Source: Desulfobulbaceae bacterium (GTDB taxonomy: Bacteria; Desulfobacterota; Desulfobulbia; Desulfobulbales; Desulfobulbaceae). From it: a stretch of 37,235 bases of DNA. Positions 32,879 to 37,235 of the stretch are shown here, piece after piece. Positions within the stretch are counted from its first letter, which is position 1, and each line of letters starts with the position of its first letter. The notes under the pieces are model-generated. The model was not told the DNA's origin, did no database searches, and saw only the letters and a list, made by a program, of their open reading frames with translations. The stretch lies in contig JAAYIE010000094.1 in NCBI GenBank assembly GCA_012744275.1, positions 1 to 37,235 on the forward strand, written 5' to 3'. The position numbers were made by a program, and so were the translations under genes.

Positions 32879-34006
32879 TCAACAGGCCTCTGCCAGCGGC
32901 AGTCGCAGGCAAAAGACAGCCCCACCATCCTTGTCATTAATCGCAGTGAGTTCTCCGTTGCGGGTGCTGGCCAGCGAGCGGGCCACGGCTAGCCCCAAAC
33001 CGGCATAGCGATGGCCATTTGGCCCGGGGCCAGAGGGTAGCAAGGCGCGTGTACTAAAAAAAGGTTCAAAAATGTGGGGCATATCTGCTTCGGGTATGCC
33101 TGCGCCACTGTCCTGCACGCGTAGTTCGTACCAGTGCCGACTATGGCCATCAGACCGGACTTGACCGTTTAGGCGCATCACTCCACCGTCTGGCATGGCG
33201 TCCAGCGCGTTTTCCAGCAGGTGCAGGCAGATCTGTCGTAATTCGGTGCTGGACCCCAGTGGCTTACCATTACTGTCGATCTGCATCTCAAGCTCTACCC
33301 CGGCCTTTTCCATGCGTTCGCGCAACAGGACCAGCACCTGTTCCAGTTCAACAGCAACATCAAGGGGGCGGATGCTGTTGTCCAGTCCATGGCCAAGTAT
33401 GAGTAACTTCTTGGTTATTTCACGCACTCGCAGGCACTGCGTCCTGATTTTCAGTAACGCGTCAAACACATCCTCCATGCCAGGCAGGCTAGCTGCCTCG
33501 GCCTCTTCCAGGCAGTCTCGAATGAGTCCTGCCGCCTGCACAATAATATTCAGCGGATTGTTAACCTCGTGTGCAACACCTTCTGCAACCCGGCCCAGAC
33601 TGCGCCAGCGGGCTGTTTCCGCCAGGCGGGCCGCCTCCTGCCGCGCTGCTATTCTCTCTCCGGCCTTGCGGCATTCATTGAGGATATCGTCCAGCCGCAT
33701 GGGTTTCGACAACCAGTTGACCGCACCGCAGCGCATGGCCTGTACGGCCTTGTCCATATCTCCAGCGCCCGAAAGCATGACCACATCAGTCTGGGGGAAC
33801 TGCTCGTGCAGCACCTTGAGCAGGGCCACCCCGTCCATCCCCGGGAGACCCACATCTAGAAAAATAAGGTCGTGGGGGGCATGCTGCATTATGGACAGGG
33901 CCTCCTGTGCATCCAGGGCAGTAGTGATCTCCATGCCGCGCAGCTGCAGGCGCTCTGCCAGTGGTAGTGAAAAAGACGGCTCATCATCAACAATGAGGAT
34001 ACGCAT
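32879..34006 (-). CDS. Receiver-histidine kinase fusion protein
   Basis: 375 residues from the ATG at 34006 with GGAGGT three bases upstream. Residues 1-115 are a receiver domain: DDE at 7-9, phospho-acceptor D51 in IFLDVGLPGMDG, Lys101 in LSKPM. A coiled linker follows, then the kinase core: H-box GVAHEVNNPLN (H146), N-box LLENALDAM, G1 VQDSGAGIP, F-box HIFEPFF and G2 AGLGLAV. There is no membrane segment or sensor domain, so it is cytoplasmic and probably takes phosphate or signal through its receiver. Last gene of the signalling cluster. Confidence 0.92.
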   Translation of the reverse strand: MRILIVDDEPSFSLPLAERLQLRGMEITTALDAQEALSIMQHAPHDLIFLDVGLPGMDGVALLKVLHEQFPQTDVVMLSGAGDMDKAVQAMRCGAVNWLSKPMRLDDILNECRKAGERIAARQEAARLAETARWRSLGRVAEGVAHEVNNPLNIIVQAAGLIRDCLEEAEAASLPGMEDVFDALLKIRTQCLRVREITKKLLILGHGLDNSIRPLDVAVELEQVLVLLRERMEKAGVELEMQIDSNGKPLGSSTELRQICLHLLENALDAMPDGGVMRLNGQVRSDGHSRHWYELRVQDSGAGIPEADMPHIFEPFFSTRALLPSGPGPNGHRYAGLGLAVARSLASTRNGELTAINDKDGGAVFCLRLPLAEAC

Positions 34007-34052: not shown

Positions 34053-34523
34053 TCAGTCGCTTCCGTCTTTCAGTTTATTTTCTTTAAGAATGTCACGAGC
34101 AGATTCAAAGTCTCCTCCTTGTGCCAGGGAAACCGCGACCATAGTATTTTCCAGCTTGTCGCGGTACGCCAGGCGGATGCTGCCCAGCAGTTCGTCAATA
34201 TCCATGGGTTTGCGTAGAAAGTTGTACGCGCCCATACGGTAGGCGGTTTGCTCTTCTGCATCGCCGCCGTGACCGGTGAGGATGATGACCTGCACCAAAG
34301 GGTTACTTTTTTTAACGTTGCGCAACACCTCAAAGCCGTCCATGCCGGGCATACGCAGATCAAGAACGATCACGTCTACAGGCTGTTCCACGGCCTTGAG
34401 GGCTTCCGGCCCGTCATAGGCCACCTGCGCAGCAAAGCCCCGCATGGCCAAGCGCTCGGCCAACGTGTCCACAAAGTGTTTTTCATCGTCTACCAGTAAA
34501 ATTTTAATATCTTCCTTGGTCAT
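34053..34523 (-). CDS. Single-domain response regulator
   Basis: 156 residues, ribosome site AAGGAG. Receiver domain residues 6-120: acidic pair VDDE (11-14), phospho-acceptor D55 in VIVLDLRMPGMDG, Thr in ILTGHGG and Lys in LRKPM. The C-terminal 35 residues are charged and contain no DNA-binding or enzymatic domain. The N-terminal FVDTLAERLAMRGF is nearly identical to the other receiver of the cluster (35240-35635). Probably a phosphate shuttle or protein-interaction switch. Confidence 0.93.
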   Translation of the reverse strand: MTKEDIKILLVDDEKHFVDTLAERLAMRGFAAQVAYDGPEALKAVEQPVDVIVLDLRMPGMDGFEVLRNVKKSNPLVQVIILTGHGGDAEEQTAYRMGAYNFLRKPMDIDELLGSIRLAYRDKLENTMVAVSLAQGGDFESARDILKENKLKDGSD

Positions 34524-34556: not shown

Positions 34557-35243
34557 CTATTGACTGTCGGCTTCACAGGCGACAAGAGAAAGAAAATAAC
34601 GGGAACCGGCATCACGCCACGGCGTGAGTGCCGCTCTCCAGCCAGGGGACATACTACTGAGCATGGGAGCACCGGTCAGGGCGGCCAGCACCATCTCGCG
34701 GTTGGAACCATCCCGCACGTCAATCACAATGCCCTCTTCCTTACGCAGGCGGTCGGCGGCAATATGCAAGGCAACCTGCCCGCCAACCGCAGCGCAGAGA
34801 TCAAACACTTCCAGTAATGAGCGTAGTACGGCCAGCGCGGGGGCATTGGTCCAGACTGGTTCGGCGGTAGCTTCACTGCTGAGCTGGATCTGCACGGCAC
34901 GGGCCTGACGGGCCGCCAGTAACTGGAAGCTGCGACAGGCTCGGGCAAGATCACAAGGACCAGCCGTATTCCTGCCATCTGCGCCGCCTGCATGTGCCAT
35001 GTAATCCATGGCTTCGGACAGGGCTGCTCCTTGCAGCACTGCTCGTTGCACCTCTGCCAAGGAAGCCGAAATGCGACTATTTCCAGCAGACAGCCTGTCT
35101 CCATCCCCCGCTGCTTTCTGCTTGGAGACAAGGGCTGCAATATCCTGTGCTAATCCGGCCGATTCGCGCACAATAGCCAGAAGGTTGCGCATATCGTGGA
35201 CAGCAGAGGCCAAAAGGCGAGCCATACACAGTGTATCATTCAT
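34557..35243 (-). CDS. Histidine-box protein with degenerate kinase domain, possible phosphotransferase
   Basis: 228 residues. The N-terminal helix has a histidine box, SAVHDMRNLLAIVRES, with H16 as the candidate phosphorylation site, followed by a second helix with heptads, as in DHp dimerisation domains. The rest (about 85-228) has the size and rough pattern of a HATPase domain, but the N-box (N-x-x-x-N) and the G1/G2 glycine motifs cannot be found. Size and layout resemble the Spo0B/ChpT phosphotransferases, although a divergent kinase is not excluded. It overlaps the receiver gene before it by four bases (ATGA). Confidence 0.7.
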   Translation of the reverse strand: MNDTLCMARLLASAVHDMRNLLAIVRESAGLAQDIAALVSKQKAAGDGDRLSAGNSRISASLAEVQRAVLQGAALSEAMDYMAHAGGADGRNTAGPCDLARACRSFQLLAARQARAVQIQLSSEATAEPVWTNAPALAVLRSLLEVFDLCAAVGGQVALHIAADRLRKEEGIVIDVRDGSNREMVLAALTGAPMLSSMSPGWRAALTPWRDAGSRYFLSLVACEADSQ

Positions 35244-35635
35244 AAACGCTCTCCGTTTGCTGTGGCAGCGCCTGTGTGCGTCGTCGCGGCCGCCAGGATT
35301 TCCAGCAGCGCTTTCAGCGCCAGAGGTTTGGTCATGCAGGCAAAGGCCTGCTCAACCGCCATCGGGCATGTGTCGCCCACAACGCCATGTCCGCTGAGCA
35401 CAATAACCGGCAAATCGGGAAAAATGTCTTTCAGGCGGCGGAGAGTTTCCTCTCCGGGCATACCCGGCATGAGCATGTCCAGCACCACAACATCTGGCTT
35501 ATCTGTACGTACTGCCTGCAAGGCGCTCTGGCCACTATAAGCAACGCGGGGATCGTAGCCGCGTAGTGCCAGGCGTTCGGCCAGGGTGTCGACGAATTCG
35601 GTTTCATCATCAATCAGGAGAACGCGCAACGCCAT
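35240..35635 (-). CDS. Single-domain response regulator
   Basis: 131 residues from the ATG at 35635, preceded by GGAGGT; the frame is open upstream but inside the kinase gene. Only a receiver domain: DDE at 9-11, phospho-acceptor D53 in VVVLDMLMPGMPG, Ser in VLSGHG and Lys in MTKPL. No output domain. It starts one base after the sensor-kinase stop, so it is the likely first partner of that kinase, and overlaps the histidine-box gene downstream. Confidence 0.93.
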   Translation of the reverse strand: MALRVLLIDDETEFVDTLAERLALRGYDPRVAYSGQSALQAVRTDKPDVVVLDMLMPGMPGEETLRRLKDIFPDLPVIVLSGHGVVGDTCPMAVEQAFACMTKPLALKALLEILAAATTHTGAATANGERL

Positions 35636-35636
35636 C

Positions 35637-37235
35637 TCACACCTCCACAGGAACTTCAGGCGGTACAAGGGGCAAAATGACACGCACCACGCTGCCCCGG
35701 CCTTCTTCACTTTCCACATGTATTTCTCCACCTAGACGGCGCACAATGCCATAGGTGATGAACATGCCGAGGCCTGTGCCTTTGTCTGCCTTGGTGGAGT
35801 AGAATGGTTCAAAGATATGCTTCAGCACTTCCGGTGACATACCCTTACCGTTGTCTGCTACGGTCGCCACCACCCCGGTTTCTTCTTCATAGTTGCAACT
35901 GACCCGCACAAAGGATTCTTCAGGTGGATTATCGGCATGGCTGGCAGCCACTGCATCCAGCGCATTGCCGACAAGATTCAGAAACACCTGCTGCAGCTGG
36001 CCGCGGTCCGAAACAATTTCCGGAAGGTTATCGGCCAGCTCCATCTCAAGTCTGATTCCCCGGTTATTCGCCTCCCGCTCCACGAAACCCAGGGTTTCTG
36101 TGATAATTTCCTCAAGATGCAGGGCCTGACGATTGGTTTCCATGCGCCGGGCAAAGCCTAGGAGTCTGTGCGTGATTCCCTTAGCCCTTTCCACCGTACT
36201 TTCAATACCTTCAAGCAGAGCATGGAGGCGTTCTCGAAACTGGCTATCGCCGCCGCTCTTGTCCAAGGCCAATAGATCCATGGCAAGCCCAGCTTTTTCA
36301 TAGATGACTGCCAGAGGATTGTTGACTTCGTGGGCTACTCCGGCAGCAAGCCGCCCTATGGACGACAGTTTCTGACTGTGTTCCATCTGGGCAAAGGCGA
36401 CAATGCGCCGTTCATCGCTGGCCTGGAGCCGATTCACCAACTGGCCCATCAATATTCTGGACACCAGAACAATGAGGGCAATGCCGCCACTCAGCACCAG
36501 CAGAAGCTCGCTGCGCAGCAGTAGCCAAGGACGAATGGCGTCGGCAACGGGCTTGATGGCCATCAGGGTAAATTCTGTACCGGTCAGGGTACAGGAAGCC
36601 ACCATCAGTCTGCGGCCCTGGGCATCGGTCACGCGGCGTACCACGGTTTCGTGGGAGTGAGGCGGCATAGCGATGGGGATTGTTTCCAGGGCCTTGCCAT
36701 ACAAACTGGAATCGGTTTGGAGTACTCCATCACTGTTGACCAGAAAAACATCCGTATCATGCTCTGGTCCAACCACCGACACGATTTGCTGCAGGCGCAG
36801 CGTGTCGGTGGCTACGCGCAGGGTCCAAGAAGTGCCGTTTTCTTCAAGCCTGTTGACCGCCACCACCATATGGGGATAACCGCGATAGCCCAGAAAAACA
36901 GGGCTGAGGTAGCGTCCCTGCACCTCGGTTTCCTGCAGCCACGGTTCGCCGGCATAGTCGACCCCCTTGAGTTTGTAGGGGCCCACATAGGCAACCTGAC
37001 GGCCATCGGCATCCACCAGTCCCATGTCAACAAAGCCCTGGAATTCGCTTTTGAGGGACAGAAAAATTCGATTGAGCGTTCGTTCATCAGTTAAATCGGA
37101 AAAATGATAGGCATGGGCGAGAAAACTGACCGTGGAAACTCGTTCTCCCAGGTATAGTTCCAGTGCCGCCTGGGACTTGCGTGCCAGGGCATACACGGGG
37201 CTTTCCATCTCCCCTTCCAGAGTGCGCATGTATTG
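35637..37235 (-). CDS. Membrane sensor histidine kinase with Cache-type sensor (5' end outside window)
   Basis: 532 residues visible; the reading frame is open to the window edge and the ATG at 37229 has no ribosome site, so the N-terminal membrane helix probably lies outside. Residues about 15-235 look like a periplasmic double-Cache domain (SEFQGFVDMGLVDADGR, YLSPVFLGYRG). A membrane helix (LLLVLSGGIALIVLVSRI) follows, then H-box GVAHEVNNPLAVIYEK, N-box LNLVGNALDAV, G1 VADNGKGM, FEPFYSTK and G2 GTGLGM. It should autophosphorylate on the H-box histidine in response to a periplasmic small-molecule ligand; the ligand is unknown. Confidence 0.92.
   Translation of the reverse strand, partial: QYMRTLEGEMESPVYALARKSQAALELYLGERVSTVSFLAHAYHFSDLTDERTLNRIFLSLKSEFQGFVDMGLVDADGRQVAYVGPYKLKGVDYAGEPWLQETEVQGRYLSPVFLGYRGYPHMVVAVNRLEENGTSWTLRVATDTLRLQQIVSVVGPEHDTDVFLVNSDGVLQTDSSLYGKALETIPIAMPPHSHETVVRRVTDAQGRRLMVASCTLTGTEFTLMAIKPVADAIRPWLLLRSELLLVLSGGIALIVLVSRILMGQLVNRLQASDERRIVAFAQMEHSQKLSSIGRLAAGVAHEVNNPLAVIYEKAGLAMDLLALDKSGGDSQFRERLHALLEGIESTVERAKGITHRLLGFARRMETNRQALHLEEIITETLGFVEREANNRGIRLEMELADNLPEIVSDRGQLQQVFLNLVGNALDAVAASHADNPPEESFVRVSCNYEEETGVVATVADNGKGMSPEVLKHIFEPFYSTKADKGTGLGMFITYGIVRRLGGEIHVESEEGRGSVVRVILPLVPPEVPVEV

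Follow-up and report, generated by a model that had tools for sequence, protein, structure and literature searches.

A putative histidine phosphotransferase family, probably derived from a neighbouring histidine kinase, in a signalling operon of a Desulfobulbaceae bacterium

The 37,235-nucleotide contig analysed here (JAAYIE010000094.1 of a Desulfobulbaceae bacterium, assembly GCA_012744275.1; its whole length is called the window below) carries, between two genes for receivers, a gene for a 228-residue protein which has the histidine box of a kinase, and the question raised by this locus is what such a protein would do if it cannot bind ATP. A sequence-only reading had taken it for a phosphotransferase resembling ChpT and Spo0B. 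Judging from relatives and predicted models, we consider it likely that the 228-residue protein descends from a histidine kinase whose ATP site was lost and now acts as a histidine phosphotransferase, because the histidine is kept, the ATP site is lost and receivers surround the gene. The features on which the argument draws are as follows.

34557..35243, minus strand: putative histidine phosphotransferase of 228 residues, with a DHp hairpin and a degenerate ATPase-like domain (sequence, profiles, predicted fold)
34989..35237, minus strand: DHp helical hairpin of the 228-residue protein, residues 3-85 (helices 3-45 and 48-85; AlphaFold2 model)
35196..35198, minus strand: codon of H16, the predicted phospho-accepting histidine (invariant in 23/23 relatives)
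34992..34994, minus strand: codon of H84, another invariant histidine, located where helix 2 ends (His in 93/93 members, Arg in 83/84 nearby kinases)
34578..34949, minus strand: degenerate ATPase-like (CA) domain of the 228-residue protein, residues 99-222 (alignment columns and predicted fold)
35637..37229, minus strand: dCache sensor histidine kinase, taken from the most upstream start codon available, 5' part missing (ORF and Pfam)
35240..35635, minus strand: single-domain receiver 1, 131 residues, with an ATGA overlap with the start of the 228-residue ORF (Pfam)
34053..34523, minus strand: single-domain receiver 2, 156 residues, with a short C-terminal tail (Pfam)
32879..34006, minus strand: receiver-histidine kinase fusion, 375 residues, final gene of the run (Pfam)

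The open reading frame begins with an ATG at 35241-35243 and stops at 34557-34559 on the minus strand, and it has the 228 residues, with H16 in SAVHDMRN, that the sequence-only reading gave it. Pfam bears out the five-gene signalling cluster that had been described, in the order dCache kinase, receiver, 228-residue protein, receiver and receiver-kinase, with the genes tightly packed on one strand: one nucleotide separates the kinase stop from the ATG of receiver 1, receiver 1 and the 228-residue ORF share the ATGA, and gaps of 33 and 46 nt follow. The upstream kinase matches HATPase_c (E 2.5e-25), HisKA (1.2e-6) and dCache_1 (2.8e-11, at 43.9 bits below the cut-off of 45), and the receiver-kinase matches Response_reg (1e-25), HATPase_c (2.1e-19) and HisKA (0.00034). 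Both flanking receivers were said to lack output domains, which agrees with the single Pfam domain that each of them (131 and 156 residues) shows over cut-off. A point missed earlier is that the frame of the upstream kinase stays open to the contig end at 37235; its 5' part is therefore missing, and the operon, being cut here, may have further genes. At the three codon positions the 228-residue ORF has G+C values of 0.69, 0.52 and 0.56, a weaker polarisation than in its four neighbour genes, which makes its coding signal the weakest of the five, but a chance ORF is argued against by relatives in 102/218 genomes of the order, mostly beside the same kinds of genes. A conserved tail of receiver 2 was considered as a feature of the family and dropped, as just four receivers, the window's among them, fit the pattern.

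These relatives were collected at several depths. BLAST with the window protein found 23/55 genomes at E<=0.01, its own genome included, with all other matches weak (2.0e-6 to 0.0096), and searching with a profile built from these 23 sequences yielded 103 matches in the 102/218 genomes at E<=4.0e-40 (both numbers counted from the listing), followed by a step in scores to a 581-residue frame at 4.1e-32. At the level of the phylum, a profile search found 40/297 genomes at E<=1e-35, a cut-off that misses the window copy itself. From named genomes, we took by means of a peptide pattern the best 80 of 138 loci (L061-L140), nearly all of which come from genomes named as Desulfo- or Deltaproteobacteria, including Solidesulfovibrio alcoholivorans DSM 5433 at L122 and Desulfopila aestuarii DSM 18488 at L138. 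Since this pattern fixes H, H+1 to H+4 and H+6 to H+8, conservation counts only in the motif-free set of 23 sequences, in which A12, H16, N20, L22, E27, G30, L31, D34, H84 and R112 are invariant (23/23). The 92 sequences taken from loci have 202-239 residues, bar three cut by contig ends (L121, L124, L125), and with the window protein they form the set of 93 members used below, from which L154 and L136 were left out. When 77 members were scanned singly with Pfam, HisKA was matched at E<=0.1 by 75, and HATPase_c was absent from the 25 of 29 families listed. NCBIfam assigned kinase models to the family at modest E-values and matched nothing in the window protein; a sequence search of the PDB returned kinases first and then chance-like matches, e.g. 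USP7.

The second half of the protein had been described as devoid of recognisable ATP-binding motifs, and this holds for the window protein as well as for the family. Against Pfam, the window protein has a weak HisKA match alone at E<=1 (E 0.13) and no HATPase_c. The search for N, G1 and G2 boxes that had been proposed showed strict G1 and strict G2, by regex, each in 0/93 members vs. 83/84 nearby kinases, and in the alignment with these 84 kinases the GTGLG columns are gaps in 92/93 members. The N-box was judged from alignment columns, the corresponding regex having found merely 1/84 kinases and 1/93 members; N occupies its two columns in 84/84 and 82/84 kinases and is outside the four commonest residues of the family at both. 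The comparison kinases were picked by an H-box regex, and their H, E/D, N and P are therefore built in. We rejected an ordinary active histidine kinase on the lack of HATPase_c in the window protein at E<=1 and on the counts of G1 and G2, each 0/93. A kinase that still works through an unusual nucleotide site might be suggested by the retained ATPase-like fold and by the few members with looser glycine patterns (DxGxG in 5/93, GxGxG past residue 90 in 3/93; NA past residue 110 is found in 25/93), but we regard it as very improbable, with the strict boxes absent from 93/93 by regex and the N-box residues replaced.

The predicted fold points to the same make-up. The AlphaFold2 model of the window protein (pLDDT 86.1, pTM 0.82) folds into a hairpin of two helices (residues 3-45 and 48-85) followed by an alpha/beta domain (residues 99-222), and that of the relative L063 (pLDDT 93.3, pTM 0.87) has the same layout, with a second domain matching the CA domains of kinases such as ThkA (Z 16.2, 2.5 Å, 126 residues). 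The window protein is thus predicted to combine a histidine-kinase hairpin with a degenerate ATPase-like (Bergerat-like) domain; a monomeric Hpt domain, which would be a four-helix bundle in one chain, was rejected in view of this two-helix hairpin plus alpha/beta domain and the lack of an Hpt profile match. Two aspects of the fold searches count against the phosphotransferase reading: 1) the best Z of the window model (10.8, for ZraS and DivL, 3.4 Å, 123 residues) was tied with unrelated coiled or helical proteins that match its hairpin; 2) kinases and the pseudokinase DivL outrank ChpT, with Foldseek listing DivL first, then kinases, and 4fpp (E 5.4e-5), 4qpk and 4fmt at ranks 32, 41 and 44. 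The entry 4fmt is titled ChpT, and we take 4fpp and 4qpk to be ChpT as well. As the TM-scores for the window model are low (0.30-0.47), the ChpT match speaks for the two-domain plan and not for common descent with ChpT. In the suggested comparison of predicted structures with ChpT and Spo0B, ChpT is among the Foldseek matches of the window model, and Spo0B was not among the matches listed in any fold search; this absence carries no weight either way, nor does that of ChpT from the 50 matches listed for the L063 model.

The adjacent genes were scored in 79 of the 80 named loci (the best of 138), each feature where there was enough flanking DNA. A receiver lies within reach of the family gene in 67/67 loci, upstream in 64/77 and downstream in 61/71, and at least two receivers are present in 48/67; that no receiver was scored upstream in 13/77 and downstream in 10/71 counts against the phosphotransferase reading. 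The script found a kinase nearby in 65/70 loci, and we recognised three more by eye (L084, L086, L128), missed by the script as their frames overlap the family ORF. The phospho-accepting Asp is kept in 65/65 upstream and 64/66 downstream receivers, and none of these 65 upstream and 66 downstream receivers has at least 60 residues after the receiver domain (maximum 43), so that, by length, the adjacent receivers are without room for a DNA-binding domain. In one genome of the order, receiver and family domain are even fused in one frame of 344 residues (L154, 6867-7898, minus strand), an entry which had been labelled a receiver-kinase. With its relatives placed beside sensor and receiver genes, the protein probably hands phosphate between receivers. 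We postulate that the dCache kinase would autophosphorylate and phosphorylate receiver 1, from which the phosphate would be passed to H16 of the 228-residue protein and then to receiver 2; in the window, H16 may perhaps also supply the receiver of the receiver-kinase. We infer the direction of this flow from gene order and precedent; the dimerisation, the phosphate transfer and the signal are inferred as well.

The receiver-kinase itself is matched at E<=1e-25 in 35/55 genomes, among them that of the window, many of the matches covering just the kinase part, and no other such fusion on the same strand as the family gene was seen among the relatives' loci inspected. A kinase-receiver hybrid is carried by L085, and L089, L099, L111 and L120 have a kinase on the opposite strand.

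Conservation at the H-box allows for a different use of the same receivers, i.e. that the DHp domain strips phosphate from them, as a phosphatase or phosphate sink, rather than passing it on. The residue N at H+4, invariant in 23/23 motif-free relatives, has a role in the phosphatase activity of HisKA kinases. In addition, PhyT of Sphingomonas, another degenerate kinase, was initially proposed to be a phosphatase, although, as the text of PMC5898713 relates, it was later found to be a phosphotransferase. Both activities can coexist, but a second receiver is usually near, and we think it improbable that removal of phosphate is what the protein is for.

The neighbourhood of the relatives also suggests which process the putative phosphotransferase may serve. 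In 54/65 loci, a cytidylate-kinase-like protein fused to a C-terminal receiver is encoded before the kinase (e.g. L063:1444-2673, L111:1441-2676). Its cytidylate-kinase-like domain showed a P-loop in 0/55 by a single regex, which a family-specific loop may escape; the domain may therefore be an inactive nucleotide kinase that is used as an output. A SulP or STAS gene is present in 43/59 loci, and Sulfate_transp, STAS, Cytidylate_kin2 and dCache_1 were confirmed by Pfam on sample proteins. In two loci a SulP-STAS permease carries a fused receiver at its end (L137:1-1530, by Pfam, and L136:1-1536, by our own profile), an arrangement that would let phosphorylation act directly on transport. A second arrangement was seen upstream of kinase, receiver and family gene, where a PAS/sigma-54 activator that has no receiver is accompanied by a small NifX-like protein (L149:2862-4670, L150:2585-4337, L152:3135-4935); a CitMHS-type transporter gene lies near the cluster in L149, and L138 has a sigma-54 activator together with a 118-residue protein to which Pfam gives no match.

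As to the origin of the family, the neighbouring kinase is the nearest candidate for a parent. A tree was built from 28 family members together with 28 kinases of the operons and 19 other kinases (14 of the window genome's 28 HATPase_c matches, those with H-box and G2, and 5 from flanks). One branch (SH-aLRT 99) separates the family from the rest, a different one (SH-aLRT 95) separates the other kinases, and the operon kinases fall between; the tree is quick and unrooted with long branches, and the operon kinases form no single group. Over the 20 residues from the histidine, mean identity is 62% between members and their own operon kinases (80 pairs) vs. 33% between members and the 19 other kinases, a difference partly fixed by the search pattern. 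Outside the pattern, E at H+11 is found in 93/93 members and 65/80 operon kinases (the remaining 15 have Q), and in 1/19 other kinases. Taking H260 to be the phospho-histidine of HK853, positions H+8, H+11 and H+15 correspond to A268, A271 and T275 of that kinase, which are altered in structures with a "rewired interface" according to the entry titles; the helix that chooses the receiver therefore seems to be shared. At these three positions the window has IEL in the 228-residue protein and VEL in the operon kinase. We surmise that a duplication of the neighbouring kinase probably gave rise to the family, with the receiver-recognising helix kept and independently of ChpT and Spo0B.

The same similarity might mean that the protein is a partner of the neighbouring kinase, which it would bind by way of its similar DHp hairpin and modulate, carrying no phosphate itself. 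Partnerships between pseudokinase and kinase are known for RetS with GacS and DivL with CckA, and both DivL and RetS are among the fold matches. A mere partner of this kind is distinctly unlikely in our estimate, however, since H16 is invariant in all 23 motif-free relatives, at least two receivers accompany the gene in most loci and the fusion with a receiver exists. For the phosphotransferase reading, the domain make-up, the loss of the ATP boxes, the kept histidine, the linkage by operon and fusion and the likeness to the neighbouring kinase are supported by sequence comparison and models.

The window copy is not a typical member, and this counts against extending the phosphotransferase reading to it. 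It shares 13-24% identity in the alignment with 76 others, no member exceeding 25%; it has the longest branch of the family (end branch 4.09) and an odd composition, and it departs from near-universal residues at A8 (G in 85/93), V15 (S in 88/93) and R19 (K in 91/93). In addition, its genome has no cytidylate-kinase-like match over cut-off, and its codon-position signal is, as noted, the weakest of the operon. These features could indicate that the window copy alone has decayed or taken a new role within a family of phosphotransferases, which is compatible with our main reading of the family. The open frame, the ATGA overlap, the retention of H16, N20 and H84 and the confident model speak against decay, and we consider it unlikely. 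The SulP genes of this genome lie on other contigs, and the ORFs around two of them (labelled by eye) are unlike the phosphotransferase cluster.

Putting these observations together, we offer as a tentative proposal, which we hold to be possible rather than probable, that a phylum-wide phosphotransferase family, which arose when the adjacent kinase was duplicated and the copy decayed, and which has an origin apart from those of ChpT and Spo0B, connects a phosphorelay whose adjacent receivers include no DNA-binding regulator, and that in sulfate reducers this relay would adjust the uptake of sulfate both by acting directly on the SulP permease and by way of the cytidylate-kinase-like receiver protein, the module in the window having been rewired onto the receiver-kinase. 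The main text of PMC11887813 describes SulP and DASS sulfate-transporter clusters of Desulfobacteraceae which carry cache-domain kinases and regulators; the latter are called WalR type, with a promoter interaction given in a figure legend. With SulP, a cache-domain kinase and response regulators, these SulP clusters are probably the same kind of locus as our SulP-type relatives, but the promoter model contrasts with the receivers here, 0/131 of which have at least 60 residues after the receiver domain. That main text uses none of the terms phosphorelay, phosphotransferase and cytidylate, and 'histidine kinase', 'response regulator', 'two-component' and 'cytidylate' are absent from the main text of a survey of sulfate transporters (PMC5840216); in searches of the open-licence literature we recognised no description of this phosphotransferase family, or of a phosphotransferase in SulP clusters. 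Beside SulP, the family would offer a mechanism for the control of sulfate uptake unlike the promoter-binding model in PMC11887813.

How does the family compare with the systems to which it had been likened? By profile, membership in the known families did not hold up: at E<=1 the window protein matches just HisKA in Pfam, and neither HPTransfase, which we take to be the ChpT profile, nor SPOB_a and SPOB_ab, presumably the profiles of Spo0B, were found; HPTransfase is also not among the 25 of 29 families listed for the 77 members. What stands of the likeness to ChpT and Spo0B is the reading as a phosphotransferase, through the fold, the lost ATP boxes, the kept histidine, the receivers and the fusion in L154. 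To our knowledge, few phosphotransferases made from dead kinases are known, i.e. Spo0B, PhyT and the ChpT of alphaproteobacteria such as Caulobacter. Spo0B of Bacillus shuttles phosphate from one receiver to another; it is a dimer in which DHp domains form a four-helix bundle and the ATPase domain is degenerate. The window protein, modelled as one chain with a two-helix hairpin, differs from it in having no match to its profile. In the text of PMC3433190, ChpT comprises a DHp hairpin with the phospho-histidine and an atypical Bergerat domain which does not use ATP and in which the ATP lid is replaced. Our family resembles it in the DHp and ATPase-like domains, in the lost ATP site with lid columns that are mostly gaps, and in the solved ChpT chains of 205-209 residues among the fold matches of the window protein; it differs in that the window gene lies in an operon with a kinase and single-domain receivers, and in that the family is nearest its own operon kinases (in the 28+28+19 tree, built without ChpT). 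PhyT, as given in the text of PMC5898713, takes phosphate from a single-domain receiver to another regulator; it is anchored in the membrane and its HRxxN motif is that of the HWE/HisKA_2 family, in contrast to the H-[ED]-x-[KR]-N box and the two cytoplasmic-type domains alone in our family. We surmise that the family would work like ChpT, Spo0B and PhyT, while it is separate from them by profile and probably in origin. The principle is already known; the addition made here is the family, its frequent link to SulP and the apparent parent kinase next door, which, in still adjoining its presumed offspring, shows how phosphotransferases may arise from dead kinases.
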